A DNA stretch of 48,758 bases from NCBI GenBank assembly GCA_011524395.1, contig WTKN01000128.1, forward strand, positions 1-48,758, in the 5' to 3' direction. The stretch's first letter is position 1. The number at the start of each line of letters is the position of its first letter. The stretch is from Moorena sp. SS36440bin_2. GTDB taxonomy: Bacteria; Cyanobacteriota; Cyanobacteriia; Cyanobacteriales; Coleofasciculaceae. The position numbers and the translations under genes are program-made. The notes under the pieces are model-generated. The model searched no databases. It saw only the letters and a program-made list of their open reading frames with translations, and was not told where the DNA came from. Of this stretch, positions 2,162 to 48,707 are shown piece by piece.

Positions 2162-2186
2162 AGTTTCACATTAGCTAGTGCAGGAA

Positions 2187-5087: not shown

Positions 5088-5343
5088 AGCACCGATTCCT
5101 TAACAAGTAAGTAATAATTTTGTGGCTCTAATTATTATCTCTTAAACTGGTTACCAATCTTATTGGAAGTTACTTTTGTTTGTAAAACTTAATTGACAAA
5201 ATCGGCAAACCTAATGGCAATTATCTGCAAAATTTCTTGCATAAAACTGCAATATAGCCTTTTAATTTTAGGTGTAAAACATTGATGGATTGTCAAGGTT
5301 AATAGGTAACTTCGACATAACCATTAATATAGAAAAACCTAAG

Positions 5344-30831: not shown

Positions 30832-31558
30832 AGCCTGTTGGTCAATTGCCTGATATCAAATTCGGTGGAATCACCATACTTCCTGGTGACCAGAGCAGGG
30901 GGAGCAAGGCAGCACTCAGCTTAAGCGCTACTTGAGGTGCGTGCGCGTTCAGCACTCAGCTATCAGCCATTAGCCATTAGCCTTGGCCATTAGCGAATGG
31001 CCACGCTACGGGAACAGTTTATGGGCTACACCCACGCTACTAGATCGGTGGTTTTGAATAAAATAAGCACCGATCTAGTAGCGTGAGCCAAAAGCTGACG
31101 GCTGTTCGCGTAGCGTGGCCTTTGGCCAACGGCTGACTGCTGAATGCTTACGGGGCGAGACAGAGCCGAATTTCACCATTGGTTCTTTTGGACAAATGAT
31201 TTAGGATATCTATCGTTTATAAAAATTCATCAAAACTATAACGTTAGGTTTACCTAAATTTTATCAAACAATCTATTAACGCAATTCAAAATTATTCCAC
31301 CAGTGTAGCACCAAAAAGTTATGCCACACTGGCAACCTTGTGAGCATTTAATAAGCCACTATACTAAGCAGTTCATCTCATTTAACTATCAGCAAAAACT
31401 CCCAAGCAATTAGTAAAGATTTAGTAAACACTTAGTAAATATTCAGTAAAGCAATGAAATTGATATTTCTAGTTATCTAGATATCGTTAAATTAATTAAA
31501 TCAATAAATAACTAAAAAATATGTCTTTAGTTGTGTTTCTTTTGATTTTTTATTTAGC
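30832..31558. other. Repeat-rich gap upstream of the polysaccharide cluster
   Basis: The first 350 bp hold cag/tcagc-type repeats and copies of ggccacgctacg (30999-31010) and gttcgcgtagcgtggccttt (31104-31123). From ~31180 it becomes A/T-rich and probably contains the promoter of the cluster. No ORF with family support was seen. Confidence 0.6.
31033..31085. repeat. Perfect 18-bp inverted repeat
   Basis: cacgctactagatcggtg (31033-31050) is perfectly repeated in inverse at 31068-31085 around a 17-nt A/T-rich loop, inside the palindromic-repeat tract. Confidence 0.92.
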
Positions 31559-31674
31559 TATACTAATCCCAAATCCGTTTGTCAAAACCCCTTTATACAA
31601 ATCGACCAAATCTTTGTATGCCAAGAATCTCTGGCTATGGGGATAAGGGGGGTATGGAAACAGGATTTGGTATA
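31559..31674. mobile_element. Possible MITE upstream of the capD-EAL gene
   Basis: A ~116-bp segment with imperfect inverted ends: tatac(taatcc)caaatccg at the left, and aggatttggtata at the right reading inward as tataccaaatcct. Both are followed by gttt and a C-rich run. It carries no ORF and lies ~165 bp before the dehydratase-EAL start. Confidence 0.5.
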
Positions 31675-31838
31675 ACCACCGATTTCTAAAGTTAAGATAA
31701 CTTACGCACCCAAACGTGTAAAACATCGGTACGGTAATTATATGTCCCCCTTTTTATGTTTACCGTTACTTGTTATATGAACCGAAGCTTAATAGCTAAT
31801 TACTGTGTAATTTTTTATAATCAACTGAATAATAAAAC

Positions 31839-34664
31839 ATGACGAATAACTTATTAAATTGGTTACTAGGTCTGAGAAATCGCCACTTCTTACTCATTGA
31901 TTTGATTATTTTCACGAGTACGCCAGTATTAGCTCTAGTCCTATTCTTAAACAATCATTTAGATATCAACCTCTATCAATCTGGACTGATACTGGCAACC
32001 ATTCTGTTCCTAGTCGTTAAACTAACTGTATTTTCTACCTTCGGTCTCTACAAGCGTTGCTGGTCTTATGCCAGTATTGATGAACTAGAGCAGATAGCCG
32101 CACTTACTGCTGCTGCTATAGTCATTCAAACGTTATTGTTTCACTGGTCGAATGGTTTAACCAATTTATCCTTGAATAGCCTGCCTAATTCCTTGCCCTT
32201 ACTTGACGGTATACTGAGCTTGTTATTTGTCGGTAGTCTTCGCTTCAGTGTTCGTGCAGTCGAAAGAGTCAGCCAAAAGCATAGGAAGTTTCATCGCCGG
32301 GACAATGTACTGATTGTTGGTGCTGGTAGTGCAGGGGTTGCTCTAGCCCAGGATATGCAAAAGAATCCTTCCCTGGGTTTTAATCCTGTCGCTTTTATTG
32401 ACGATGACCGTAAAAAGCTCAATTTAAGAATTAGGCGACTACCTATAGTTGGTAATCGTGATGCGATTCCTGATGTTGTTCGCTCTCTACGTATTCGCAA
32501 AATTATTATCGCCATGCCTACAGCACCTGGGCGAGTTATTCGGGAAGTTTTAGATATTTGTAAATCCACAGGACTACCAACTACTACTTTACCTGGTATG
32601 AATGAAATCCTCAATAATCCTATCCGTGTTGGTAGTGTTCGAGATGTCAAGATTGAAGACTTGCTGCGTCGCGAACCTATACAAACTGATGTTCAGCGTG
32701 TGGCTAAGTTTCTGAAAGGAAAAATAGTTTTAGTGACAGGAGCAGGAGGCTCTATTGGCAGTGAACTTTGTCGCCAAATTTTTAAGTGTCAACCTTCAGA
32801 AATGGTACTTTTGGGACATGGAGAAAACTCTGTGTTCCATATCCAACAAGAACTAAACAAAGTTTTAGAACTACTTGAATACGATCGGTTAGAAAATGAA
32901 ATACTTCCCAATATTAATACTATTATTGCTGATATTCGATTGACAGGTCGGTTAGAGTACATTTTTGACCAATTCAGACCAGATATTGTTTTCCACGCTG
33001 CGGCTCACAAACATGTGCCAATGATGGAATTAAATCCTCCAGAAGCGATCACAAACAATGTGCTGGGAACCAAAAATTTGCTGGATCTCTCATTGCGATA
33101 TGGTGTAGAACACTTTGTGATGATTTCAACGGATAAAGCAGTTAATCCCACCAATGTTATGGGCTGCAGCAAGCGAGTGGCGGAAATGCTTGTGCTACAA
33201 GCGGCTCAAAGGAGTGGTAGGCATTTTTCTGTGGTTCGTTTTGGCAATGTTCTCGGTAGCCGAGGTAGTGTTGTTCCTACCTTTAAGCGTCAAATTGCTG
33301 CTGGGGGTCCGGTGACTGTTACCCACCCTGATATCTGTCGCTATTTCATGACGATTCCAGAAGCAGTTCAATTGGTTTTGCAAGCCTCAGTGATTGGTCA
33401 GGGTGGTGAAGTGTTTATGCTCAATATGGGTCAACCGGTCAAAATTGTTGACTTAGCCAAAGAACTGATTCGCCTGTCCGGGTATGAAGTTGGTAAGGAC
33501 ATTGACATTGTCTTTAGCGGACTGCGACCAGGAGAAAAGTTATTTGAGGAACTGCTAATTCCTGGAGAAGAATATGAACCAACCCTACACGACAAATTGC
33601 TAGTAGTTAAAAATGCTAGTCACATGGTTTCCCAAAATCTTGACTATGCCGTAGAGGCACTCCGGAAAGCTGCCGCTCAAAATTATACCAATCTAATTCT
33701 ATTCTTGCTGGAGCAACTGGTACCAGGATACACCGCTAAATACAAAAAAACTACTCCAATCCTAAATGTACCTTCGGATATTTCTAAGATTATCAGGAAT
33801 GATGAAACTATTAAAGTATTGGACAAGTGTTATTACCAAGCCAACGGCAAATTTACCCACACCAAAAAAATTGGGTTTTGGGAAATGGAAGATTATTTGC
33901 AAAAGGCTCTAAAAAATCAGGATTTGCAGCTTTACTACCAGCCGATTATGCTCCTAGAAAACGAGCATATAAATAGTTTTGAAGCATTGTTGCGCTGGCA
34001 ACATCCTAACTTAGGATTGATTTATCCAGAAGAGTTTATGCCAGTAGCCAAAGCAACTAGCTTGATTGTTCCCATGGGTTGGTGGGTAATCAAAGAAGTT
34101 TGCAATCAACTACAGTCTTGGCAACAACTGTTTCCTACTCAAACACCGATAACCATTAGTGTTAATCTGTGTCGCCAACAGTTATTGCAACCTGATTTAG
34201 TTCAGCAGATTGACCATATTATCAATAATAATAACTTGGATCCTTATCGTTTTAAGCTAGAAATACCTGAGAGTTTTATTCGTAAAAATCCTGAGAAAGC
34301 CATGGTAGTGCTTGCTAAACTTAGAGCCATTGGGGTTCAGTTAGAATTGGATAATTTTGGTATGGATAATTCATCGGATATCAATTATATCCATGAAGTA
34401 TCTAACTCTATCTATCGAGAGTTTAATGGCTTAAAATTTGATCGCTCTCTAGTCAGTAAAATCAATACCGATAACAGAAATTTAGAACCCGTTCAAACCG
34501 TGGCTAAACTAGCCAATGATCTTGGTATTGATCTAATTGCCACCGGGGTAGAAACATCAAGGCAAATTGATCAACTAAAAATCCTCAACTGTAAATATGG
34601 ACAGGGCTACTTTTTCTCCAAACCCCTAGACGTTGAAGCGGCTATAACTTTGATTGGAGTTTAG
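31839..34664 (+). CDS. CapD/FlaA1-type nucleotide-sugar 4,6-dehydratase fused to a degenerate EAL domain
   Basis: 941 aa. Four membrane helices (~15-135) precede a Rossmann-like domain (VLIVGAGSAGVALAQDM from ~157). The SDR dehydratase domain (~295-600) has LVTGAGGSIGSELC and STDKAVNP (Lys433), with Met441-x3-Lys445 (MGCSK) in place of YxxxK, as in FlaA1/WbpM/PglF. After a ~60-residue linker, an EAL domain covers ~690-935. Intact features are Glu715-Ala-Leu (FEALLRW), ISVNLC, LEIPES, Lys866 (LKFDRSLV) and GQGYFFSKPL. Two signature sites differ: DNFG (Asn839) for DDFG, and ATGVET (Thr902) for AEGVET. The latter position is the proposed general base in RocR. Phosphodiesterase activity is therefore doubtful; c-di-GMP binding remains possible. 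The gene opens the polysaccharide cluster. Confidence 0.92.
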   Translation: MTNNLLNWLLGLRNRHFLLIDLIIFTSTPVLALVLFLNNHLDINLYQSGLILATILFLVVKLTVFSTFGLYKRCWSYASIDELEQIAALTAAAIVIQTLLFHWSNGLTNLSLNSLPNSLPLLDGILSLLFVGSLRFSVRAVERVSQKHRKFHRRDNVLIVGAGSAGVALAQDMQKNPSLGFNPVAFIDDDRKKLNLRIRRLPIVGNRDAIPDVVRSLRIRKIIIAMPTAPGRVIREVLDICKSTGLPTTTLPGMNEILNNPIRVGSVRDVKIEDLLRREPIQTDVQRVAKFLKGKIVLVTGAGGSIGSELCRQIFKCQPSEMVLLGHGENSVFHIQQELNKVLELLEYDRLENEILPNINTIIADIRLTGRLEYIFDQFRPDIVFHAAAHKHVPMMELNPPEAITNNVLGTKNLLDLSLRYGVEHFVMISTDKAVNPTNVMGCSKRVAEMLVLQAAQRSGRHFSVVRFGNVLGSRGSVVPTFKRQIAAGGPVTVTHPDICRYFMTIPEAVQLVLQASVIGQGGEVFMLNMGQPVKIVDLAKELIRLSGYEVGKDIDIVFSGLRPGEKLFEELLIPGEEYEPTLHDKLLVVKNASHMVSQNLDYAVEALRKAAAQNYTNLILFLLEQLVPGYTAKYKKTTPILNVPSDISKIIRNDETIKVLDKCYYQANGKFTHTKKIGFWEMEDYLQKALKNQDLQLYYQPIMLLENEHINSFEALLRWQHPNLGLIYPEEFMPVAKATSLIVPMGWWVIKEVCNQLQSWQQLFPTQTPITISVNLCRQQLLQPDLVQQIDHIINNNNLDPYRFKLEIPESFIRKNPEKAMVVLAKLRAIGVQLELDNFGMDNSSDINYIHEVSNSIYREFNGLKFDRSLVSKINTDNRNLEPVQTVAKLANDLGIDLIATGVETSRQIDQLKILNCKYGQGYFFSKPLDVEAAITLIGV

Positions 34665-34889: not shown

Positions 34890-36284
34890 ATGGTGATTAG
34901 CAAGATAGCAAAATACAGCAAGTTAGTCTTTGTAATAGGGATATTCACCACTGTTGCTTGTAATACTATGACAACAGCTCAAACCTCTAAGGTTACCACG
35001 GTTTATCAAGGTAGTGATGAACACTTTTCCAATCCAGAACGAGGCTTTTTTATGCCTTTTACTCCTCTGGACAATACATCAAATAATCCCTTACAGCTGT
35101 CTGAGCTACAAGAGGTTAGGAATAACCAAATGACCTTATTACGTAAGGTTTACCTAATTTCGGAATTTAGAAATAAACCGTTATCAGAGTCTTTTCTACA
35201 AACCCTATCCCAGGATTTGAATACGGCTCGACAAGCTGGGGTTAAATTAATCTTACGCTTTTCCTATAATTGGGTAGGAGGTGGTGAAGATTCATCCCGC
35301 GATCGCATACTCTCCCATCTGGATGATCTGCAACCGATATTAGCATCAAACTACGATGTTATCGCCTACATGGAAGCAGGTTTTATTGGTTACTGGGGAG
35401 AATGGCATAGTTCTTACTATGGTTTGGATAGCAACAATGAAGATAGAAAAGCTATTTTGTTTAAACTCCTGTCGGTGCTACCTAGTGAACGGATGATTGC
35501 TCTACGATACCCCAATCATAAAATGGCAATTTTTGATCAGGAAAATCCTCTTACCCCTGATCAAGCGTTTAATGGTACTAACCGAGCAAGAACTGGAGCT
35601 ACTAATGATTGTTTCCTAGCCAGTATTGATGATTGGGGAACTTACAGCCATACGGATCGGGGAATAATAGAACAAGAAAAGACATTTTTAAATCTGGATA
35701 ATCGGTATGTGGTACAGGGGGGAGAAACCTGCAATTCTAGTTCTTTTGACGATTGTCCCAATGCCTTAAATGAACTAGAACGAATGCGCTGGAGTGCATT
35801 AAACTACAAACCGGGTGATGCCACTGAGATCATTGAAGACTGGGAAACTCAAGGGTGTTTAGAGGAAATTAAACGTCGTTTGGGCTATCGCTTTCGTCTA
35901 GTCAAGTCAGTTACTCCTACTAGGGTAAAACCCGCTAGTACATTCTCAATACAATTGGAAATTATCAATGAAGGATGGGCTAGTCCTTACAATCCTCGGC
36001 CACTGGAAATTATTCTCCGTCACCGTGTCACTCGTCGCGAATACCATTTACCTATAGACCAGGATCCTCGGATGTGGATGCCTGGTAGTACTCAGGTTAT
36101 TAATGCTGTCACTCGTACTCCAGACACAATCGAAACTGGAACCTATGATGTTTTCTTAAATCTACCTGATCCAGCTCCTCAATTATATAATCGTCCAGAT
36201 TATTCCATCAGACTTGCTAATCAAAATCTCTGGGAAGCCTCGACAGGCTACAATTCCCTATTGACTAGCCTTGTTGTTAATTAA
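34890..36284 (+). CDS. DUF4832/DUF4874-type predicted glycoside hydrolase-like exported protein
   Basis: 464 aa. The N-terminal hydrophobic segment (~10-28, LVFVIGIFTTVAC) ends in a possible lipobox Cys, so it is exported or a lipoprotein. A TIM-barrel-like domain carries NPERGFFMPFTP, VKLILRFSYNWVGGGEDSSR and MEAGFIGYWGEWHSS, the hallmark of DUF4874/DUF4832 pairs. A C-terminal beta-sandwich (~330-460) follows. Acidic residues in GEWHSS and in the barrel could be catalytic, but the activity is not established. Within the polysaccharide cluster it may trim or modify the exported glycan (inference). Confidence 0.82.
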   Translation: MVISKIAKYSKLVFVIGIFTTVACNTMTTAQTSKVTTVYQGSDEHFSNPERGFFMPFTPLDNTSNNPLQLSELQEVRNNQMTLLRKVYLISEFRNKPLSESFLQTLSQDLNTARQAGVKLILRFSYNWVGGGEDSSRDRILSHLDDLQPILASNYDVIAYMEAGFIGYWGEWHSSYYGLDSNNEDRKAILFKLLSVLPSERMIALRYPNHKMAIFDQENPLTPDQAFNGTNRARTGATNDCFLASIDDWGTYSHTDRGIIEQEKTFLNLDNRYVVQGGETCNSSSFDDCPNALNELERMRWSALNYKPGDATEIIEDWETQGCLEEIKRRLGYRFRLVKSVTPTRVKPASTFSIQLEIINEGWASPYNPRPLEIILRHRVTRREYHLPIDQDPRMWMPGSTQVINAVTRTPDTIETGTYDVFLNLPDPAPQLYNRPDYSIRLANQNLWEASTGYNSLLTSLVVN

Positions 36285-36377: not shown

Positions 36378-37760
36378 ATGAAAGTTTGGTCAGGGCAGAG
36401 CTTGCTTATCTACTGTAAAAAGCTAGTCAATGGCTCCACGAATAGCAAAATTTTTCGCGCAATTGTAACTGTTGGTTTATTAACTGCTTTTGTAAAAGTT
36501 GGTTCTATTATTAAAGAATTAGTAGTTGCCTGGAGGTTTGGTACTGGGGATGAATTAGATGCATTTTTTATCGCTTTATTGGTGGTTTTTTTGATCAAAA
36601 ATGTAATCGCTGAATCCCTTGATACTGCCTTTATTCCTACCTATATCCGTGTACGAGAGCAGGAAGGAATGGCAGCCGCTCAAAAACTGTTTTCTGGAGT
36701 AATGATCTGGGCATTAGTACTGCTTAGCTTCACTACTATAGTAATGGTAGCTACTGCTCTGGTTTATTTACCATTGATTGCCTCTGGGTTTAACCCCGAA
36801 AAGTTAGAGCTTACCTTTCATCTACTTTGTTTAATGGCACCCGTAGTTGTCCTTACTGGGATTGCCATCATTTGGAGTGCTGTTTTGAATGCTGGGGAAC
36901 GTTTTGCTCTAGCAGCTCTATGTCCAATGATGATTCCGGTGATTAGCATCCTATTGATATTAGGATTTAAGTCTTTAGGAATCTTTGCCTTAGTTGCTGG
37001 ATTAATTAGTGGTACAGTTCTAGAGCTGATAATTCTGGGAATAGCACTGCATCATCAAGGTATTTCATTACTGCCAAGATGGTATGGATTTAATGAGCCT
37101 ATGCGCCAGGTAGCGAGTCAGTATCTGCCAATGATTGCTGGAGCATTATTAATCTGTAGTGCTGCTCCAATTGATCAAGCCATGGCAGCTATGTTGTCTC
37201 CTGGTAGTGTGTCTATACTTAACTACGCCAATGGTTTAATTGCTTCTCCCATTAACCTAATGAGTATTGCCATCAGCACTGCGGTAATTCCCTATTTTTC
37301 TAAGATGGTTTCTCGTCAGGATTGGCACGAAATCCGTGGCACCCTTAGGTATTATCTGCGGCTGATATTTATGATTACCGTACCCCTAAGCATAATTCTA
37401 ATTGTTTTTTCTGATCCGATAGTAAAACTAGTTTTTGAACGAGGTTCATTTACCTCTGATGCTACTGAATTAGTTGCGCAAACTCAAGCCCTTTATACCT
37501 TACAAATTCCTTTTTATATTGCTAATATTCTAGTGGTTAGGCTGGTGTCAGCTATGAGACTAAACTATATCCTGATGTGGGTATCTGGATTTGATTTAGC
37601 CATTAATATCATCTTGAATATTCTCTTTATGCAATGGCTGGGAATTAAAGGCATTGCGTTATCCACTAGCTGCGTGTATATCTTTTGTTTTTCCTTTATG
37701 CTCTTATTTACCCAAAACCAAATCAAAAAGAAAAACCCTGGAAAACCATTATGCGATTAA
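36378..37760 (+). CDS. MurJ/MviN-like polysaccharide flippase (Wzx role)
   Basis: MOP-superfamily flippase, 460 aa, with about 13-14 membrane segments. MurJ-like features are the N-terminal FVKVGSIIKELVVAWRFGTGDELDAFF region, APIDQAMAAMLSPGSVSILN and the amphipathic RGTLRYYLRLIFM region. It would flip the undecaprenyl-linked repeat unit across the plasma membrane. It overlaps the next gene by 10 bp (37751-37760), so the two are coupled. Confidence 0.9.
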   Translation: MKVWSGQSLLIYCKKLVNGSTNSKIFRAIVTVGLLTAFVKVGSIIKELVVAWRFGTGDELDAFFIALLVVFLIKNVIAESLDTAFIPTYIRVREQEGMAAAQKLFSGVMIWALVLLSFTTIVMVATALVYLPLIASGFNPEKLELTFHLLCLMAPVVVLTGIAIIWSAVLNAGERFALAALCPMMIPVISILLILGFKSLGIFALVAGLISGTVLELIILGIALHHQGISLLPRWYGFNEPMRQVASQYLPMIAGALLICSAAPIDQAMAAMLSPGSVSILNYANGLIASPINLMSIAISTAVIPYFSKMVSRQDWHEIRGTLRYYLRLIFMITVPLSIILIVFSDPIVKLVFERGSFTSDATELVAQTQALYTLQIPFYIANILVVRLVSAMRLNYILMWVSGFDLAINIILNILFMQWLGIKGIALSTSCVYIFCFSFMLLFTQNQIKKKNPGKPLCD

Positions 37761-38878
37761 CACTAGTGACCTCATCTCTCTCCTGTGGGGGTGCTGAGCG
37801 AGCGGTAGCTTTGCTAGCAAAAGGATTCTTTAACAAGGGTTATCAAGTTGATGTGGTAACAATTGATGACAGCTATCTTGACTTTTATAAATTACCTGAT
37901 GGGGTTAATCGAGTAGCCCTTAATATCGCCAAAAACTCACCAACTTTTATTCATGGAATTTGGAATAACCTCTATCGTTTGTGGGTCTTGAGGCGAACCA
38001 TTAAATCCCTCCACCCTGATGTCGTCATTTCTTTCTTAGATCAAATCAATATCTTGACCCTGTTAGCCCTTGTTAAGACTAACTATCCCGTTCTGGTAAG
38101 TGAACAGAATGATCCTCGGAAAAGTTCTAGTGGCAAAGTGTGGGATAGATTGCGACATATCACCTATTCCTTTGCGGATAAAGTGGTGAGCGTAGGGGAT
38201 GGAGTGAATCAGTATTTTGACTGGCTCCCCCAAACTAAACGAGCAGTAATTTACAACCCATTGGCTAGTATAAATTCCAGACCTAGTATGGATAAATTCC
38301 TGGAAAGTAAAGGAGCTGATCTAACTAAAAAATGGATAGTTGCTATCGGAAGGCTTACCCATCAGAAAGGGTTTGATATTTTATTATCTGCTTTCAAAAA
38401 ACATGCTGAACGCCATCCAAACTGGCAACTTATAATTTTAGGAGAAGGGGAGCTTCGTCCAGAGCTTGAAAATCTCAGATATCAATTAGATTTAACTAAT
38501 CAGGTCATCTTCCCTGGGGTTGTTCGTAATCCCTTTTCAGTCTTAAAACGGTCAGAATTATTTGTATTGTCTTCCCGCTTTGAAGGGTTACCAGGGGTTT
38601 TAGTCGAAGCACTCGCTTGTGGACTCCCCGTTGTTTCAACAGATTGTCCTAGTGGTCCACGAGAAGTTATTCGTGATGGTGTAAATGGGATTTTGGTGCC
38701 CAGTGAAAATAGGTTAGCCTTAGCTACAGCAATGGAGCGTTTAATATCCAATGAGGAAGAGCGTAAACGTCTAGCATCTTATGCTCCAAAAATTACAGAA
38801 CAATTTGGTTTAGGAACAATAATAGAACGCTGGGAAACTTTATTTAGTAACGTGATCAATCAGCAGTCAGCTTTATGA
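37751..38878 (+). CDS. GT4-family glycosyltransferase 1
   Basis: Retaining GT-B transferase, 375 aa. The N-terminal acceptor domain starts MRLTLVTSSLSCGGAERAVA. The C-terminal nucleotide-sugar domain carries VAIGRLTHQKGFDILLSAF, FEGLPGVLVEALACGLPVVS (the E-x7-E pattern) and TDCPSGPREVI. The ATG at 37751 is preferred to longer frames because it gives the canonical N-terminus and overlaps the flippase stop by 10 bp. Confidence 0.93.
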   Translation: MRLTLVTSSLSCGGAERAVALLAKGFFNKGYQVDVVTIDDSYLDFYKLPDGVNRVALNIAKNSPTFIHGIWNNLYRLWVLRRTIKSLHPDVVISFLDQINILTLLALVKTNYPVLVSEQNDPRKSSSGKVWDRLRHITYSFADKVVSVGDGVNQYFDWLPQTKRAVIYNPLASINSRPSMDKFLESKGADLTKKWIVAIGRLTHQKGFDILLSAFKKHAERHPNWQLIILGEGELRPELENLRYQLDLTNQVIFPGVVRNPFSVLKRSELFVLSSRFEGLPGVLVEALACGLPVVSTDCPSGPREVIRDGVNGILVPSENRLALATAMERLISNEEERKRLASYAPKITEQFGLGTIIERWETLFSNVINQQSAL

Positions 38879-38927
38879 ATCACTGACAGCAGATGTAACA
38901 GGGATTAATTGAAAACTGCTATAAAGT

Positions 38928-40037
38928 ATGATCTATAAAAGAATGATGGATACAAAGCATATCGCTTTTTTTCTACCTGCTCTCTATGACGGTGGCGCAG
39001 AACGGGTAACGGTTAACCTGCTCAAAGGGATGTTGGAACAAGATGTTCAGTTGGATCTAGTTCTTGCCAGTGCTGATGGACCTTATCTAAGCCAAGTGCC
39101 TAAGGAGGTGCGTCTGGTTAACTTGGCAGCCGGACGAGTTGTGAAAGCAATTCAACCCTTGTCACGTTACTTACAACAAAAAAGACCTTGTGCTCTAGTG
39201 TCTCATCTGGCTCATGCTAACGTCATTGCTGTAGCAGCGAGGGAGTTAGCTCGTACCAAGACTCGATTAGTGTTGGTGGAACACAACACTTTGTCAGCGT
39301 CTAAGTCTCAGTTAATGCGAGCTAAATTGGTACCACCACTGATGAAATGGTTTTACCCTCGTGCTGATGAAATTGTCGGAGTTTCTAATGCAGTAGCACG
39401 GGATTTGGAGTGCCAACTTGGTTTTGACCAAGGCAAAGTCAGAGAAATTTACAATCCAGTGGTTAATCATCAGCTAATTGCCAAATCAAAAATGCCTGTG
39501 AGCCATTCTTGGTTTCAAAAAGACGCTCCTCCTGTCTTTTTGGCTGTTGGTAGATTATCACCTCAGAAAGATTTCCTGACTCTAATTCAAGGGTTTGCAC
39601 GTTTAAGAAAAAAAATGATTGCTCGTCTGGTGATTTTAGGTGAAGGGGAATCCCGAGGCGAATTAGAGGCAACGATTAACAGGCTAGGAATTGCAGCGGA
39701 TGTTTCTATGCCAGGTTTTGTGGAGAATCCTTATGCATATATGAGTAAGGCGAATGCATTAGTTTTGTCTTCTCGCTGGGAAGGGTTACCAACTGTGTTA
39801 ATTGAAGCAATGGCATGTGGTTGCCAAGTAATTGCTACAGATTGTCCTAGTGGTCCAGCGGAAATTTTATCAGCAGGACAATATGGCATTTTAGTACCAG
39901 TCGGAGATTCAGCCGCTTTATCATTAGCTATGTTACAAGTACTTAGATATCAATTAACTCAGGATAAATTAATGGAGCGGGCAAGGTACTTTTCTACTGA
40001 GCGAGCAGTTTCTGAGTATTTGGCTATCTTGAACTAA
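38928..40037 (+). CDS. GT4-family glycosyltransferase 2
   Basis: 369 aa, GT-B fold. It has IAFFLPALYDGGAERVTVNL, VAVGRLSPQKDFLTLIQGFA, WEGLPTVLIEAMACGCQVIA and TDCPSGPAEIL. It is closely related to the preceding GT4; both share DCPSGPxE, a signature also common in GalNAc/Glc-transferring enzymes. In-frame ATGs at 38943 or 38946 may be the real start. Confidence 0.92.
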   Translation: MIYKRMMDTKHIAFFLPALYDGGAERVTVNLLKGMLEQDVQLDLVLASADGPYLSQVPKEVRLVNLAAGRVVKAIQPLSRYLQQKRPCALVSHLAHANVIAVAARELARTKTRLVLVEHNTLSASKSQLMRAKLVPPLMKWFYPRADEIVGVSNAVARDLECQLGFDQGKVREIYNPVVNHQLIAKSKMPVSHSWFQKDAPPVFLAVGRLSPQKDFLTLIQGFARLRKKMIARLVILGEGESRGELEATINRLGIAADVSMPGFVENPYAYMSKANALVLSSRWEGLPTVLIEAMACGCQVIATDCPSGPAEILSAGQYGILVPVGDSAALSLAMLQVLRYQLTQDKLMERARYFSTERAVSEYLAILN

Positions 40038-40210: not shown

Positions 40211-40233
40211 CTTTGCTATAGAAATAATTGACT

Positions 40234-41574
40234 ATGTTAGCCACAGCTTACTTGGGACTAATATTATTGATGTTCCTTACAGAAATAAAACGAAAAAAAA
40301 CAGGTAAGTTGGATTTCCTGACCTTGGCTAACTTGATTTTCTTTCTTGTCTATGCTTTTCCAGGATTTGTCTTATCAGCTAACCTAGAGAATGCTAGGCA
40401 TGAGTTGAACTGGGGAAATACCTTATACACTGACAACCCACAAACAGTTATTGCTATATTTGTGGGATACCTTCTGATTGTTATTGGTTTCTATTCTAAG
40501 TCAGCTGAAAAATTCGGGAAAACGATTACTATCAAGAGCTATAGTGACAAGGTTGTGATTGTCTTTGCTATTTTTCTGCTGCTATTCTCTTGTCTATCTA
40601 TTCAAATCTATGGCTCTCAGTATGGTGGCGTTATGGTAGCCCTTGCTAAAAGCCACTTGATTCGCTCAACCACGGTTGAAAGTGGCAACCTGGTTTTTTT
40701 TAAGAATTTTATGTTCTTTTCATTCTTTGCTTCTTATTTATTGGCAGCCCTGGTATTTTTTAGCAATATAAAAAAAGGTAAATTCATTCTATTTAGTTTA
40801 TTTTTGCTATCTGTAGTCGCTTCCTGGATTTCAGCAACCTTAACAGCTGGGCGTATTCCTTTTGTCAGATACATTATCGGATTTTATTTAGTTTATGTCC
40901 TAAAAACTGGAAAATTTTCCTTTACTTTCACCCTTACTTTTGTCTCTAGTGCTGCTTTGTTTTTGATTCACGGCAAAACCCTGTTTTTTAGCTTAAGCGC
41001 TTTGCCAGATGGCTATGTTGCTGTAGTGGAACGCTTTAGACAATCTCTGGACAGTGGTTCCAATGAAAGCTTTAGCATTATCGAACTAGTAGAGAACTTT
41101 GTGTTTCCAGTTCATTCCCTAGATGCAGCTTTTAATAATCATTATCCAATGCGGCTATTTCTGGATATCTACTATGGGGTGCTTTCGTTAATACCGGAGC
41201 GTCTTACTAATATGGAGTTTCCAGAAACCCTATCCTTTGAGAATACAGCAAATATCATAGGCTCCAATGAGTTTGCTATCCCACCAGGTATACTGGCCTT
41301 TGGTATCTATAGTATGTCTTGGGTGGGACTAATTATCATATCGTTGAGTTTTGGTTGGATTGGTCGTTATCTACAAACTATTTTTAATAATCAGCTACAT
41401 ACAATCTACTGGATGCCATTTGTTTATATTTTAACAGCTGTAACCTGGATAGATTTTATTACTTTTGGTGACCCAGAGGCTTACCTAATTGCTAATTTTT
41501 GGTTTTTTGCGGCTATGGGTCTATTACTATTTTTCGTTAGCAAGGTTTATTGGAAAAAAAACTATAGATTATGA
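40234..41574 (+). CDS. Wzy-like polysaccharide repeat-unit polymerase
   Basis: 446 aa, about ten to twelve membrane helices with a large central extracytoplasmic loop (~255-320). This is the general look of O-antigen/EPS polymerases, which rarely keep sequence motifs. Context decides: it lies between GT4 genes in a cluster with a flippase. The ATG at 40234 is chosen over TTG 40228. Its stop overlaps the next start (ATGA at 41571-41574). Confidence 0.8.
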   Translation: MLATAYLGLILLMFLTEIKRKKTGKLDFLTLANLIFFLVYAFPGFVLSANLENARHELNWGNTLYTDNPQTVIAIFVGYLLIVIGFYSKSAEKFGKTITIKSYSDKVVIVFAIFLLLFSCLSIQIYGSQYGGVMVALAKSHLIRSTTVESGNLVFFKNFMFFSFFASYLLAALVFFSNIKKGKFILFSLFLLSVVASWISATLTAGRIPFVRYIIGFYLVYVLKTGKFSFTFTLTFVSSAALFLIHGKTLFFSLSALPDGYVAVVERFRQSLDSGSNESFSIIELVENFVFPVHSLDAAFNNHYPMRLFLDIYYGVLSLIPERLTNMEFPETLSFENTANIIGSNEFAIPPGILAFGIYSMSWVGLIIISLSFGWIGRYLQTIFNNQLHTIYWMPFVYILTAVTWIDFITFGDPEAYLIANFWFFAAMGLLLFFVSKVYWKKNYRL

Positions 41575-42704
41575 AAATACTATACCTTACTACTGGAGTC
41601 TCCATAGGAGGTGCGGAGTTGATGTTATATCATCTCCTATCCAAGATAAACCGAAGCCGCTTTACTCCAGTGGTACTGTCTCTAATGGGGCGTGATACGG
41701 TAGGCGATCGCATTCAATCTTTGGGTATACCTGTTGCTCATATTGGTCTTGAACCAGGAAAGGTTCCAAGCCTTCAAGCATTGTCTAAGTTAATTAATAC
41801 GGTGAATACTCTCAAGCCTGACCTAATTCAGGGATGGATGTATCACGGAAATATAGCTGCCAAATTAGCTAGTAGTTTTTATACCCATAAAATTCCACTC
41901 TTGTGGAGCATTCATCATTCAGTTTCTTCCTTGTCATCTGAGAAGAAAATGACAGCATCACTGATTAGAAGTGGTGCTATGATTTCTAAATTTATCCATG
42001 GAATTTGCTTTGTATCTAGTCAAAGTAAATTACAGCATGAAGCGTTGGGATATTCTTCGGAAAACAGCTGTGTAATTCCTAATGGATTTGACACGTCTTT
42101 ATTTAAACCATCCCTGGAAGCTAGAGCAGCTTTTCGTTCTGAGTTAGGGTTGTCTGAGCAATCGGTTTTAATCGGATTGATTGGTCGTTATCATCCCATG
42201 AAGGATCACCCTAATTTTATCCGGGCTGCTTCATTGTTAGTCAAAGAATTTCCTGATGTACATTTTATTATGGTTGGCACAGAAGTTGACCAAAATAATA
42301 ATTTTTTATCTTCCTTGATTCAGGACTTAGGACTATCGAATCATATCCACTTACTAGGAGAACGCAGTGATATTCCTCGCCTTACTGCTGCTCTAGATAT
42401 TAATACTCTGGCTTCTGCCTATGGGGAAGCCTTTCCTTTAGTTATTGGAGAGGCTATGTCTAGTTGTGTTCCTTGTGTGGTAACAGATGTGGGTGATTCA
42501 GCCTGGATTGTTGGTAAGACGGGACGAGTGGTACCCCCAAGAAACTCAGAAGCATTGGCTAGGGCTTGGAAAGAGCTAATTTTGATGGGTAATGAAGGTA
42601 GGAAACTGTTAGGACAAGCAGCAAGATATAGAATCCTTCATTCCTTTTCTATAAACTCAGTTGTCGCTAAATATGAAAGTTTATATGAACTAATTTTAGC
42701 TTAA
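41571..42704 (+). CDS. GT4-family glycosyltransferase 3
   Basis: 377 aa, GT-B. The N-terminus MKILYLTTGVSIGGAELMLY, VIPNGFDTSLFKP, LIGRYHPMKDHPNFIRAASL and YGEAFPLVIGEAMSSCVPCV (E-x7-E) support the family. The 4-bp ATGA overlap with the polymerase shows translational coupling. Confidence 0.93.
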   Translation: MKILYLTTGVSIGGAELMLYHLLSKINRSRFTPVVLSLMGRDTVGDRIQSLGIPVAHIGLEPGKVPSLQALSKLINTVNTLKPDLIQGWMYHGNIAAKLASSFYTHKIPLLWSIHHSVSSLSSEKKMTASLIRSGAMISKFIHGICFVSSQSKLQHEALGYSSENSCVIPNGFDTSLFKPSLEARAAFRSELGLSEQSVLIGLIGRYHPMKDHPNFIRAASLLVKEFPDVHFIMVGTEVDQNNNFLSSLIQDLGLSNHIHLLGERSDIPRLTAALDINTLASAYGEAFPLVIGEAMSSCVPCVVTDVGDSAWIVGKTGRVVPPRNSEALARAWKELILMGNEGRKLLGQAARYRILHSFSINSVVAKYESLYELILA

Positions 42705-42802
42705 AACTAGTGCTGATTGCGTAAGTCATTAATCCTGATAGCTAATTAGGGAGATTTTAATTATTGTAAACCAAGATAACTAGTATTGATTAATAAATAA
42801 TC

Positions 42803-44002
42803 ATGAATAAACTTTTAATAATAACTACTGTTCCGGATACACTCCGTGGCTTCCTGCTTCCCTTGGCTCACCACTTCCGGTTTGAAGGCTGGCAAGTCGA
42901 TGCTATGGCTCAGGGAGTTTCGGCTTGTGAGGAATGCTTGGCAGCTTTTGACCAGGTTTGGGATTTGCAGTGGTCACGCAATCCCTTTGATCCACATAAT
43001 CTACTGTTGGCTCCGCGAACTATCCAAGAAGTAATTGCTCAAAAGAACTATGATATTGTTCATGTACATACTCCAGTAGCGGCTTTTATTACTCGTTATG
43101 CTCTAAGGAGTTTAATAAGGCAGGGAAAACCCAGGATAATTTACACGGCTCATGGCTTTCACTTCTATCGTGGGGGGCAACCTTTAAAAAATGCGTTGTT
43201 TCTGACATTGGAAAAATTGGCTGGACATTGGACTGACTACTTAGTAGTAATTAATCATGAGGATAAAGAGGCAGCTCAGCACTATAATCTTGTGCCACCA
43301 CAACAGATTCGCTATATGCCAGGAATCGGTGTTGATTTGGAATACTACAATTTTGATTCGACTCCTGTAGCTGAGGTAATGGGGGTGTACGATGAGCTGG
43401 GAATAGCACCGGAAAATCCACTATTTTTGTCAGTTGCTGAGTTGATCCCTCGCAAGCATCATCAAGATATTTTAAGGGCATTTGCCTGTTTAGAGCGATC
43501 TGATGTCCACTTGGCATTGGCAGGAGATGGAGATGAAGAGTGGACTCAACAAATGCAAGACTTAGCATCAGCTCTAGGCATTAAAAATCAGGTACATTTC
43601 CTTGGTTTCCGCCGGGATATTCCGACTTTGATACAAGCCTCCATCGCAACACTATTGGTTTCAGAACAAGAAGGACTTCCTAGAAGTGTGATGGAGTCCT
43701 TGTGCCTGGAAACACCAGTGATTGGGACTAATATCCGTGGCACTAGGGATTTGCTGGCAGGAGACTGTGGTCTTTTGGTTGAGGTGGGGGATATCAAGGG
43801 AATCGCTCAGGCCATGACCTGGGTATTAGACCATCCTGAAGACGCATTAGCTATGGGCAAACGTGGACGGGAGCACATGAGTACTTATGATTTACAAAAC
43901 ATTCTGGAACTCCATGAGGCTTTGTATAGTGAAGCAATAAGCGATCGCATTTTGACACCTTTAGGCACTGGACTTTGGCCTGTTTACAATGACTCTATCT
44001 AA
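42803..44002 (+). CDS. GT4-family glycosyltransferase 4
   Basis: 399 aa, GT-B. It has VHVHTPVAAFITRYA, IIYTAHGFHFYRGG, SVAELIPRKHHQDILRAFA, EQEGLPRSVMESLCLETPVI and the TNIRGTRDLL motif. The HGFHFYxGG pattern recalls the PglA/WcaC-like group that often adds the second sugar after a PglC-type initiator (encoded 349 bp downstream). Confidence 0.93.
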   Translation: MNKLLIITTVPDTLRGFLLPLAHHFRFEGWQVDAMAQGVSACEECLAAFDQVWDLQWSRNPFDPHNLLLAPRTIQEVIAQKNYDIVHVHTPVAAFITRYALRSLIRQGKPRIIYTAHGFHFYRGGQPLKNALFLTLEKLAGHWTDYLVVINHEDKEAAQHYNLVPPQQIRYMPGIGVDLEYYNFDSTPVAEVMGVYDELGIAPENPLFLSVAELIPRKHHQDILRAFACLERSDVHLALAGDGDEEWTQQMQDLASALGIKNQVHFLGFRRDIPTLIQASIATLLVSEQEGLPRSVMESLCLETPVIGTNIRGTRDLLAGDCGLLVEVGDIKGIAQAMTWVLDHPEDALAMGKRGREHMSTYDLQNILELHEALYSEAISDRILTPLGTGLWPVYNDSI

Positions 44003-44351: not shown

Positions 44352-44990
44352 ATGAGTAACAAAATTACTAGCAATAACTTACAACCAATAATTAAAGACA
44401 TTGCCGACAGATTTGTTGCTGCAACTGCTCTGATTGTTTTATCGCCTATTATCCTAATTATTGCGATCGCCATCTACTTCCGTATGGCAAGGCCAATTGT
44501 TTTCACCCAACTAAGACCGGGGAAAGATGGTCGTATTTTCAAGTTCTATAAATTTCGCACCATGACCGATGATTGCGACTGCAATGGTAATCTACTTCCG
44601 GATGAAGAACGCCTCACCGCAATTGGTGAATTTCTACGGGAAACCAGTTTAGATGAACTTCCTCAACTTTGGAATGTTCTGAAAGGGGATATGAGTTTTG
44701 TCGGACCTCGTCCTTTACTGGTGGAGTATTTAGATCGCTACAATTGTGAACAAGCACGCCGCCATGAGGTTAAACCTGGTATTACGGGTTGGGCACAAGT
44801 TAATGGTCGCAATACCATTAGTTGGGAAAATAAATTCAAATGTGATGTTTGGTACGTTGATAACTGGAATCTGTGGCTTGATTTTAAAATCCTATTCCTA
44901 ACCTTTATTAAAGTGACCAAGCGCGAAGGTATTGTTAACCCAACCCACTCTACATTAAGTGAGTTTCAGGGGAGCTCTCCCTCTTGTTAA
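44352..44990 (+). CDS. Initiating phosphoglycosyl transferase (PglC-type sugar transferase)
   Basis: Monotopic membrane enzyme that transfers phospho-sugar from UDP-sugar to undecaprenyl phosphate. The short 212-aa form has one reentrant N-terminal helix (~18-40) and the catalytic core FKFYKFRTMTDD, the essential Asp101-Glu102 pair in TSLDELPQLWNVLKGDMSFV, GPRPLLVEYL and RHEVKPGITGWAQVNGRN. It would start assembly of the repeat unit made in this cluster. PglC relatives use UDP-diacetamido-bacillosamine or related sugars. Confidence 0.94.
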   Translation: MSNKITSNNLQPIIKDIADRFVAATALIVLSPIILIIAIAIYFRMARPIVFTQLRPGKDGRIFKFYKFRTMTDDCDCNGNLLPDEERLTAIGEFLRETSLDELPQLWNVLKGDMSFVGPRPLLVEYLDRYNCEQARRHEVKPGITGWAQVNGRNTISWENKFKCDVWYVDNWNLWLDFKILFLTFIKVTKREGIVNPTHSTLSEFQGSSPSC

Positions 44991-47564: not shown

Positions 47565-48707
47565 ATGAATAAACCAATTCTTTTGTCTACACCCCACATG
47601 GGTGATCAGGAACTGGAGTTTGTTAAAGAAGCCTTTGAAACAAATTGGATTGCGCCAGTGGGTCCCCATGTGGATGCTTTTGAGCAAGAATTTTGCCAAG
47701 TTGTGGGTACTCGCCATGGGGCTGCTGTTAGTTCTGGCACAGCAGCCTTGCATCTAGCGCTACGGCTAGTTGGGGTTAAATCAGGGGATGAAGTCTTTTG
47801 CTCTACCCTTACCTTTATCGCTACTGCTAGCGCAATTACTTATTTGGGAGCCAAGCCAGTGTTCATCGACTGCGATCGCACTAGCTGGAATATGGATCCC
47901 GACTTACTGCGGCAAGCTCTAGATTGGCGGGCTCGACTGGGTAAATTACCTAAAGCCTTGGTTTTGGTCCATCTGTATGGTCAAAGTGCTGATATTGATC
48001 CGATTTTAGAAGTTTGCGATCGCTACGAGATTCCCGTGATTGAAGACGCTGCTGAAGCCTTAGGTGCCACCTACAAAGGTCGCTCTCCGGGAACCTTTGG
48101 GGAAATTGGTATTTACTCCTTCAATGGCAATAAAATTATTACTACCTCTGGTGGCGGCATGTTGGTTTCAAACCATCCTGATTTTGTCAGCAAAGCTCGT
48201 TTTCTGGCAACCCAAGCCCGTGACCCAGCCCCCCATTACCAGCACTCACACATTGGCTACAACTATCGCCTCAGCAATATTTTAGCTGGAGTTGGTCGTG
48301 GTCAATTGCGGGTTTTGAATCAAAGAGTAGCAGCGAGACGGCGTAACTTCGAGATTTACCAGGAAGCCTTGGCAGAGCTGCCAGGAATAGAATTTATGCC
48401 AGAAGCCCCCTATGGACGAGCCACGCGCTGGTTAACTTGCCTGACCATTAACCCTGATGCCTTTGGAGCAGATCGAGAGCAGGTTCGCCTGGCTTTGGCT
48501 GCAAAGCACATTGAAACCCGTCCTGTCTGGAAACCATTACACTTACAGCCTGTATTTGCTGAGTGTCACTCTATTGGTGGTGCGATCGCAGAAGATTTAT
48601 TTGAGCATGGTCTTTGCCTACCTTCTGGCTCCAATCTTACCACTGAAGACCTAGAGCGGGTGATTGAAGGGATTAAGGCAACCTCTCGTTGTCTAGTACA
48701 CAAGTAA
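47565..48707 (+). CDS. DegT/DnrJ/EryC1/StrS-family sugar aminotransferase
   Basis: PLP-dependent 4-amino-sugar transaminase, 380 aa. It has the family N-terminus ILLSTPHMGDQELEFVKEAF, AVSSGTAALHLALRLVG, STLTFIATASAITYLGA, VLVHLYGQSADID, VIEDAAEALGATYKG and the catalytic Lys190 in YSFNGNKIITTSGGGM. GYNYRLSNILAGVGRGQL follows. It is of PglE/WecE type and would aminate the 4-keto-sugar made by the CapD-type dehydratase at the start of the cluster. An acetyltransferase expected to complete the sugar may lie beyond the contig end. Confidence 0.94.
   Translation: MNKPILLSTPHMGDQELEFVKEAFETNWIAPVGPHVDAFEQEFCQVVGTRHGAAVSSGTAALHLALRLVGVKSGDEVFCSTLTFIATASAITYLGAKPVFIDCDRTSWNMDPDLLRQALDWRARLGKLPKALVLVHLYGQSADIDPILEVCDRYEIPVIEDAAEALGATYKGRSPGTFGEIGIYSFNGNKIITTSGGGMLVSNHPDFVSKARFLATQARDPAPHYQHSHIGYNYRLSNILAGVGRGQLRVLNQRVAARRRNFEIYQEALAELPGIEFMPEAPYGRATRWLTCLTINPDAFGADREQVRLALAAKHIETRPVWKPLHLQPVFAECHSIGGAIAEDLFEHGLCLPSGSNLTTEDLERVIEGIKATSRCLVHK

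Follow-up and report, generated by a model that had tools for sequence, protein, structure and literature searches.

Can cyclic di-GMP (c-di-GMP) act directly on the enzyme that makes a sugar precursor? The question is raised by a single gene in a 48,758-nucleotide stretch of Moorena sp. SS36440bin_2 (contig WTKN01000128.1; the whole stretch is called the window here), which encodes a membrane nucleotide-sugar 4,6-dehydratase carrying an EAL domain at its C-terminus. We read 48 such fusions from Moorena, Pseudanabaena and other genomes of the same order or class, and found that the EAL has lost two residues of its second-metal site throughout, while the first-metal site is whole in every complete domain. 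On balance, we think it rather probable that the fusion EAL binds c-di-GMP without hydrolysing it, perhaps together with one metal, and as a receptor controls the dehydratase or its assembly through an enlarged loop.

The gene is one open frame of 941 codons on the forward strand, with no internal stop. Pfam searches of the single 941-residue protein matched CoA_binding_3 (residues 127-245), Polysacc_synt_2 (297-591) and EAL (687-929), the last at 195.8 bits against a cut-off of 31.3, and bore out the claim of an earlier sequence-only reading that one continuous 941-codon frame joins a CapD-type 4,6-dehydratase to an EAL domain. A GGDEF domain was also sought in the protein by Pfam and gave no match, so this is not a GGDEF-EAL tandem. 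Hydropathy maxima at residues 26, 59 and 92-95 agree with a membrane-anchored dehydratase. The parts of the gene are as follows.

31839-34664, forward: fusion gene, membrane 4,6-dehydratase with C-terminal EAL domain, 941 residues; an open frame, present as the same frame in two other genomes of the genus.
31884-32258, forward: N-terminal hydrophobic region, residues 16-140, predicted membrane anchor (hydropathy; helices in the structure model, of low confidence there).
32217-32573, forward: CoA_binding_3 (Rossmann-like) domain, residues 127-245 (Pfam PF13727, 55.2 bits).
32727-33611, forward: dehydratase domain Polysacc_synt_2, residues 297-591 (Pfam PF02719, 391.6 bits; PglF 5bju, E 9.7e-90).
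33129-33161, forward: catalytic stretch TDKAVNPTNVM (T431, D432, K433, M441), aligned to the TDK...M stretch of PglF.
33612-33887, forward: variable linker between dehydratase and EAL, residues 592-683 (alignment; for residues 601-683 the ratio of non-synonymous to synonymous substitution, dN/dS, is above that of the EAL in five of six Moorena pairs).
33897-34625, forward: EAL domain, residues 687-929 (Pfam PF00563, 195.8 bits; structure model; Foldseek match to the MorA EAL, template modelling (TM) score 0.91).

Among solved structures, the closest to the middle part of the fusion is Campylobacter PglF (5bju, E 9.7e-90), aligned through STDKAVNPTNVMG. Titles of PglF structures name variants at T395, D396/K397 and M405, and T431, D432, K433 and M441 of the fusion are equally spaced. 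The stretch STDK[A/S]V.PT..MG..KR is present in all 46 fusions that were aligned, with STDKSV in one of them. PglF/WlaL, the Campylobacter membrane UDP-GlcNAc (uridine diphosphate N-acetylglucosamine) 4,6-dehydratase, and the long-chain WbpM/CapD group share the dehydratase domain and the TDK...M stretch, and by these motifs the dehydratase half is a predicted PglF/CapD-type nucleotide-sugar 4,6-dehydratase. It differs from PglF in the approximately 260 residues of EAL, plus linker, added at the C-terminus; PglF itself has a membrane anchor and is not known to carry an EAL domain. Within the window genome the fusion is the sole strong Polysacc_synt_2 protein (395 bits, with the next at 71).

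The EAL domains of the 46 aligned fusions, four of them Pseudanabaena copies, were compared residue by residue with 31 controls, which are EAL domains taken from elsewhere in the window genome, from related genomes and from other bacteria. Repeats or a contig-cut copy (L007, L065 and L008) were removed beforehand, and for counts of spacing and position conservation two fusions with a truncated EAL (L111 and L112) and one partial control (L006) were left out, giving 44 complete fusions and 30 controls. Two further fusions, one of them cut by a contig end, were read later. The positions that carry the argument are these.

33981-33995, forward: EALLR, with E715 (first-metal ligand) and R719 (ligand contact), kept; each in 44/46 fusions, the other two being without this half of the domain.
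34164-34166, forward: N776, first-metal ligand, kept (46/46).
34260-34262, forward: E808, first-metal ligand, kept (44/46).
34350-34355, forward: D838, first metal, kept (46/46), and N839, in place of the second-metal Asp, which is found in 0/46 fusions and 31/31 controls.
34362-34433, forward: enlarged, remodelled loop and helix after DDFG, equivalent to the LapD switch loop (D838-K866 spacing).
34434-34436, forward: K866, ligand contact, kept (42/46).
34542-34544, forward: T902, replacing the Glu of AEGVET (second-metal site or proposed base); Glu in 0/46 fusions and 28/31 controls.
34602-34604, forward: Q922 of YGQGY, kept (44/46).

Translation and alignment agreed with the sequence-only reading on the EAL motif at 715-717, N776, LEIPES, K866, the D838-N839-F-G sequence and T902. 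Position 839 is N in 28 fusions, H in 11, K in three, Q in two and R in two; position 902 is T in 35, V in three, A in three and L, S and I in one each, the region being missing in two. In the controls the AEGVET position holds Glu in 28 and Lys in the other three. The two fusions read later agree, which brings the absence of both the second DDFG Asp and the AEGVET Glu to 48/48. What remains is equally consistent: all four first-metal ligands (E, N, E, D) occur in 44/44 complete fusion EALs, as do Q701, R719, E905 and Q922, with K866 in 41/44. Over all 46, R719, E905 and Q922 are each kept in 44 and D868 in 40. The contact role of Q701, R719, E905, Q922 and K866 is in part taken from the literature and otherwise presumed. 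This retention spans considerable divergence, as pairwise identity of the 44 complete EALs has a median of 45% and a minimum of 29%. Among 44 positions near-invariant in the controls (at least 28/30), 18 are retained in at least 42/44 complete fusion EALs, including all first-metal ligands, and five positions hold the control residue in none of the 44: 810 (T of ITE), 839, 842 (T of DDFGTG), 871 and 902. The change in the EAL is selective.

Passages of Bellini et al. 2017 (PMC5301497) assign the first metal of PA3825 to Glu39, Asn98, Asp130 and Asp160, and the second to Asp161 and Asp183 with Mg, or to Asp160 and Glu217 with Ca. We transferred this numbering through motif order and alignments to other EAL domains rather than by direct alignment to PA3825. 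On that ligand assignment, the fusions keep the first-metal site while two of the three second-metal-specific residues are gone: neither the second DDFG Asp nor the AEG Glu occurs in any of the 46, the Asp of LKxD does in 40/46, and the window copy holds the last only. A table in the same paper gives EAL structures with c-di-GMP and the first metal only (MorA, YkuI) and with no metal at all (FimX, LapD), from which it follows that c-di-GMP can be bound independently of the second site. On sequence evidence, loss of c-di-GMP hydrolysis by the fusion EAL is well supported, and binding of c-di-GMP is likely.

A separate EAL group in the genus of the window (L006, L039 and L042) has an intact DDFG or DDLG and carries Lys for the AEG Glu (GKAIET or AKAIET). 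This may be another inactive EAL family.

The region between D838 and K866 sets the fusions apart from the controls by length. The spacing is 25-28 residues in 44/44 complete fusion EALs and 21 in 30/30 controls, which places 4-7 additional residues C-terminal to DDFG, in the loop and helix, in every one. In LapD the equivalent region, described in part of PMC3032553 as a 'switch loop', is sensitive to ligand state, and the same source connects the equivalent loop region of active EAL enzymes with dimerisation and catalysis. An AlphaFold model of the whole fusion has a mean predicted local distance difference test (pLDDT) score of 62.7 and is usable for the EAL half and for portions of the Rossmann domains; ten-residue blocks of the EAL lie at 67-93 except for 921-930, at 59. 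Among the nearest folds by Foldseek are the EAL domains of the phosphodiesterases MorA, TBD1265 and CC3396 (PdeA), whose best chains score TM 0.89-0.91 by target length; these are also close in sequence. The aligned stretches of TBD1265 and CC3396 hold both Asp residues of DDFG and the AEG Glu, whereas the fusions are without the second Asp and the Glu. Foldseek also matched the dehydratase half, whose model is poor, to PglF.

How widely is the fusion held? Within the genus, the whole protein is 94-95% identical and a single open frame in two other genomes, one of them M. bouillonii PNG, whose EAL part is 92% identical to that of the window; a third assembly (L008, Moorena sp. SIO3H5) has a copy cut by a contig end, and of the four genomes of the genus in which the fusion was sought, one (G003) gave no copy. 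Full-length fusions of approximately 50% identity occur in three Pseudanabaena genomes and on a plasmid. A profile built from seven fusions and searched over 388 genomes of the order yielded 42 fusion frames (two with a truncated EAL and one without a protein start); 35 genomes gave matches to the profile end, one of them lacking the start, and seven gave long frames whose C-termini were read as EAL or truncated EAL. A draw from the phylum gave three fusions in 386 genomes, including the frame in G008, and one from the class gave eight in 388, one contig-cut. The three draws overlap, and two candidates were scored per genome under strict E-value limits, so that the counts are lower bounds. Frames were picked by the dehydratase motif, which omitted four unfused loci (L063, L069, L071 and L125) and none of the 42 fusion frames of the order search; under a looser motif L151 and L164 were still without a frame. 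The dehydratase plus EAL architecture put forward in the sequence-only reading therefore recurs in many cyanobacterial genomes, and restriction of the fusion to the window genome was rejected, since copies were found in the order, phylum and class draws alike.

The plasmid copy of Pseudanabaena ABRG5-3 (L047, on plasmid ABRG53f, typed as non-mobilizable) lies beside a divergent tyrosine autokinase and a large polyketide synthase/non-ribosomal peptide synthetase cluster. Its location makes horizontal spread conceivable. The copy is annotated merely as 'polysaccharide biosynthesis protein', an example of how public annotation conceals the fusion.

In a tree of EAL domains, from which L111 and L112 were left out, the fusion EALs form one clade against all 31 controls (support 100/99). 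One origin is likely from their position on one side of this branch, and the catalytic losses may date from it. The history of the dehydratase is less simple. With L122 and L123 (repeats) left out throughout, and L163 (another repeat) out of the larger set, the fusion label needs five changes on a tree of 75 rows and nine on a quick tree of 89 rows with a poorly resolved backbone; one gain followed by a few clean EAL losses is a simple account of the former but not of the latter. Repeated loss of the EAL is likely, with transfer as an alternative, and the domain is old and not essential to the dehydratase itself. Selection was estimated by the Nei-Gojobori method for six pairs among four Moorena assemblies, in which L008 was included (its pairs run to residue 883, and its only other use was in one further alignment). 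The dehydratase domain gave the lowest dN/dS, 0.02-0.09. Values for the EAL (0.17-0.45) and for residues 1-266 (0.16-0.44) were close to each other, and the linker gave 0.32-0.82. Purifying selection acts on the EAL much as it does on the N-terminal part and more loosely than on the catalytic domain.

If the EAL is a receptor, its action can be set out as a chain of conditional steps. The domain would have turned from a c-di-GMP phosphodiesterase into a receptor seated on a membrane-anchored PglF-type UDP-sugar 4,6-dehydratase, where c-di-GMP, perhaps with one metal, would be bound but left uncleaved. Binding would alter the remodelled loop or the pairing of EAL domains, and this in turn would change dehydratase activity, oligomer state or partner recruitment, such that the first nucleotide-sugar precursor would be made at high c-di-GMP, as the cell turns sessile. 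Control of the dehydratase by the EAL, with its direction and mechanism, is what we infer from these features.

Several observations weigh against this receptor reading. The control EALs, presumed active from their mostly canonical motifs, include near-copies from related Moorena genomes. Some of the 48 fusion rows are near-copies too, and loss of the two catalytic residues was perhaps one ancestral event, which means that the 48 rows are not independent tests; they are good evidence of the long retention of the remaining EAL residues. Of those, K866 (kept in 42/46) and D868 (kept in 40/46) show substitutions in a few fusions. The poor model of the dehydratase half permits no statement on its interface with the EAL. 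The EAL and linker diverge faster than the dehydratase domain, although residues 1-266 do so as fast as the EAL. Orthologues free of the EAL make up a single large group (family code f6) and occur in several further ones, so the domain is dispensable in the long term, and at least two of these orthologues, L144 and L145, head similar polysaccharide clusters. In two genomes (L111 in G483, L112 in G404) fusions of approximately 800 residues have the EAL cut to its middle, without EALLR, AEG or YGQGY. When 45 loci were searched with the 44 fusion EALs for relics of the domain, matches were found at L118 and L162 only (several loci repeat one genome, and L157 offers just 268 bases downstream); as no relic remains in the other unfused orthologues, clean loss is indistinguishable there from never having had an EAL. 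Absence in unfused orthologues and reduction in two fusions together speak against an indispensable role and fit a regulatory one.

The two loci with matches, both of them labelled as a dehydratase alone, differ. At L118 (G534, contig 16) the frame stops just past the dehydratase and a complete EAL lies directly downstream in another frame, either through a draft-sequence error or a recent break. L162 is an EAL fusion cut by a contig end, where the match also has internal stops.

Other explanations draw on the same observations. The EAL might be a scaffold for protein interaction or assembly, independent of c-di-GMP, that ties the dehydratase to the flippase, the transferases or a Wzc-like autokinase. 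Dead EAL domains can work through protein contact alone, all 44 complete members have a remodelled loop in the region that serves EAL pairing, and L111 and L112 retain the EAL middle only; a scaffold, however, would have no evident reason to retain metal and ligand residues in 44/44 domains at 45% median identity, and we regard it as unlikely. It might equally be asked whether the domain still cleaves c-di-GMP, slowly or by some other arrangement, as a trigger enzyme coupled to dehydratase flux. The first-metal site is indeed kept, as are K866 (42/46) and the second-metal ligand D868 (40/46), but the second DDFG Asp and the AEG Glu are absent in 48/48 and the T of DDFGTG in 44/44, and RocR mutants at the equivalent residues are reportedly inactive, which makes residual hydrolysis highly improbable.

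That the EAL is a remnant of an old fusion, in the course of being lost and now without a role, would account for its absence in several related lineages, its truncation in two, its separation from the dehydratase frame in one draft genome and a dN/dS above that of the dehydratase domain. Against this, its dN/dS stays under 1 in each of the six Moorena pairs (0.17-0.45), the frame from dehydratase to EAL is open in all 46 aligned loci, down to 29% EAL identity, and specific positions are fixed while hydrolytic ones are replaced; we find it improbable. A sequencing artefact or chance read-through is scarcely credible. No frameshift or stop was found between the domains, and a frameshift, an assembly artefact and read-through were all rejected because the same open frame occurs in independent assemblies and in distant species.

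Returning to the receptor reading, it has precedents in part. Degenerate EAL receptors (LapD, FimX) and c-di-GMP receptors on polysaccharide machines (BcsA, Alg44, PelD) are already known. BcsA, Alg44 and PelD act on polymerisation or export, and known c-di-GMP control of surface polysaccharides is mostly exerted there or at gene expression. LapD, like the fusion, is a membrane protein with a catalytically dead EAL (predicted to be dead in the fusion) and a loop after DDFG that departs from the consensus of active enzymes; the fusion has no GGDEF domain, and its partner domain is a metabolic enzyme. According to part of PMC3032553, the LapD motif is KVL, with HAMP and GGDEF parts in addition, where the fusion keeps the first-metal Glu. 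FimX likewise reads c-di-GMP with a non-hydrolytic EAL, a role that the fusion would share, and keeps the first Glu, Arg and Lys; it retains 4/10 essential residues, unlike the fusions with their full first-metal set. The earlier suggestion of an EAL that binds rather than hydrolyses its ligand, as in FimX or LapD, accordingly holds as to the lost hydrolysis residues and the likely kept pocket in the fusions read. The likeness lies in role rather than in residues: LapD has KVL and FimX 4/10, while the fusions retain the first-metal site entire and have a remodelled second-metal site and loop. BcsA and Alg44 (PilZ) and PelD (GGDEF-like) resemble the fusion in role, as covered in part of PMC10519070, but here the receptor would be an EAL, seated on the sugar-precursor enzyme.

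Among the matches listed in the open literature, judged by title and opening lines, no paper on an EAL fused to a nucleotide-sugar dehydratase was found. Term searches did not find 'epimerase' in the 2023 c-di-GMP review PMC10519070, nor 'epimerase' or 'dehydratase' in the census of c-di-GMP sensory proteins PMC8846402. We tentatively suggest, at somewhat short of an even chance, a receptor class not described in the literature examined, in which the second-metal site of an EAL joined to a nucleotide-sugar dehydratase was lost on a single occasion, early in cyanobacterial history, and through which c-di-GMP acts directly on the committed sugar-precursor step. If true, the signal would be placed at substrate supply, ahead of the polymerisation and export at which the best-known receptors act. 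This would be relevant to cyanobacteria that form mats and filaments, a group in which sheaths and biofilms are little understood. The system is also a convenient one, as binding, hydrolysis and enzyme activity are all measurable on a single protein, and related dehydratases with intact, truncated and absent EAL form a natural comparative series for the role of the domain.

Downstream of the fusion, the window contains the following genes.

34890-36284, forward: DUF4832/DUF4874 protein, the next gene (Pfam; family in 7/24 neighbourhoods).
36378-37760, forward: MurJ-like flippase, Wzx role (Pfam MurJ; family in 13/24 neighbourhoods).
37685-40037, forward: two GT4 glycosyltransferases (Pfam).
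40228-41574, forward: 448-residue protein, Wzy candidate (no Pfam match; family in 5/24 neighbourhoods, window included).
41571-44002, forward: two further GT4 glycosyltransferases (Pfam).
44352-44990, forward: short Bac_transf sugar-phosphate transferase, 212 residues (Pfam).
47565-48707, forward: DegT/DnrJ aminotransferase (Pfam).

A FemAB-like protein and a UPF0489 protein are listed between the Bac_transf transferase and the aminotransferase. The sequence-only reading had put the fusion at the head of a Wzx/Wzy cluster; the Wzx part stands, with the MurJ-like flippase at 36378-37760 and the glycosyltransferases, while Wzy is unproven, its candidate at 40228-41574 having no Pfam match. The Bac_transf protein is PglC-like in size, and the DegT/DnrJ aminotransferase is a PglE-like candidate. 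The dehydratase, the aminotransferase and a transferase of PglC size together suggest that the first sugar of the window cluster is probably of bacillosamine type, by analogy with the Pgl pathway.

The 24 neighbourhoods comprise the window, 20 fetched regions (two with unfused orthologues) and three Pseudanabaena loci, several of them contig-cut. Across these, the GT4 family is found in 18, the MurJ-like flippase in 13, a Wzc-like autokinase family (Wzz, GNVR and P-loop parts) in nine and the DUF4832 family in seven. A Wzy_C family is present in 7/24, the window not among them. A GH123 glycoside-hydrolase family (family 8; L134 16451-18043 and relatives) recurs in 5/24 of these polysaccharide loci. 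The window genome has eight GGDEF matches.

Upstream of the fusion gene, 30832-31838 is an intergenic stretch of approximately 1 kb in which short repeats can be seen by eye; no c-di-GMP riboswitch or other known RNA was matched in the window by Rfam at gathering score. Further away, 8536-11202 encodes an 888-residue protein in which tetratricopeptide (TPR) repeats are joined to a CHAT (caspase-like) domain. On the reverse strand, 131-8244 holds a two-partner secretion (TPS) set composed of a ShlB/FhaC-type transporter (676 residues) and two adjacent TPS-domain exoproteins of 966 residues each, which are probably a tandem duplicate.

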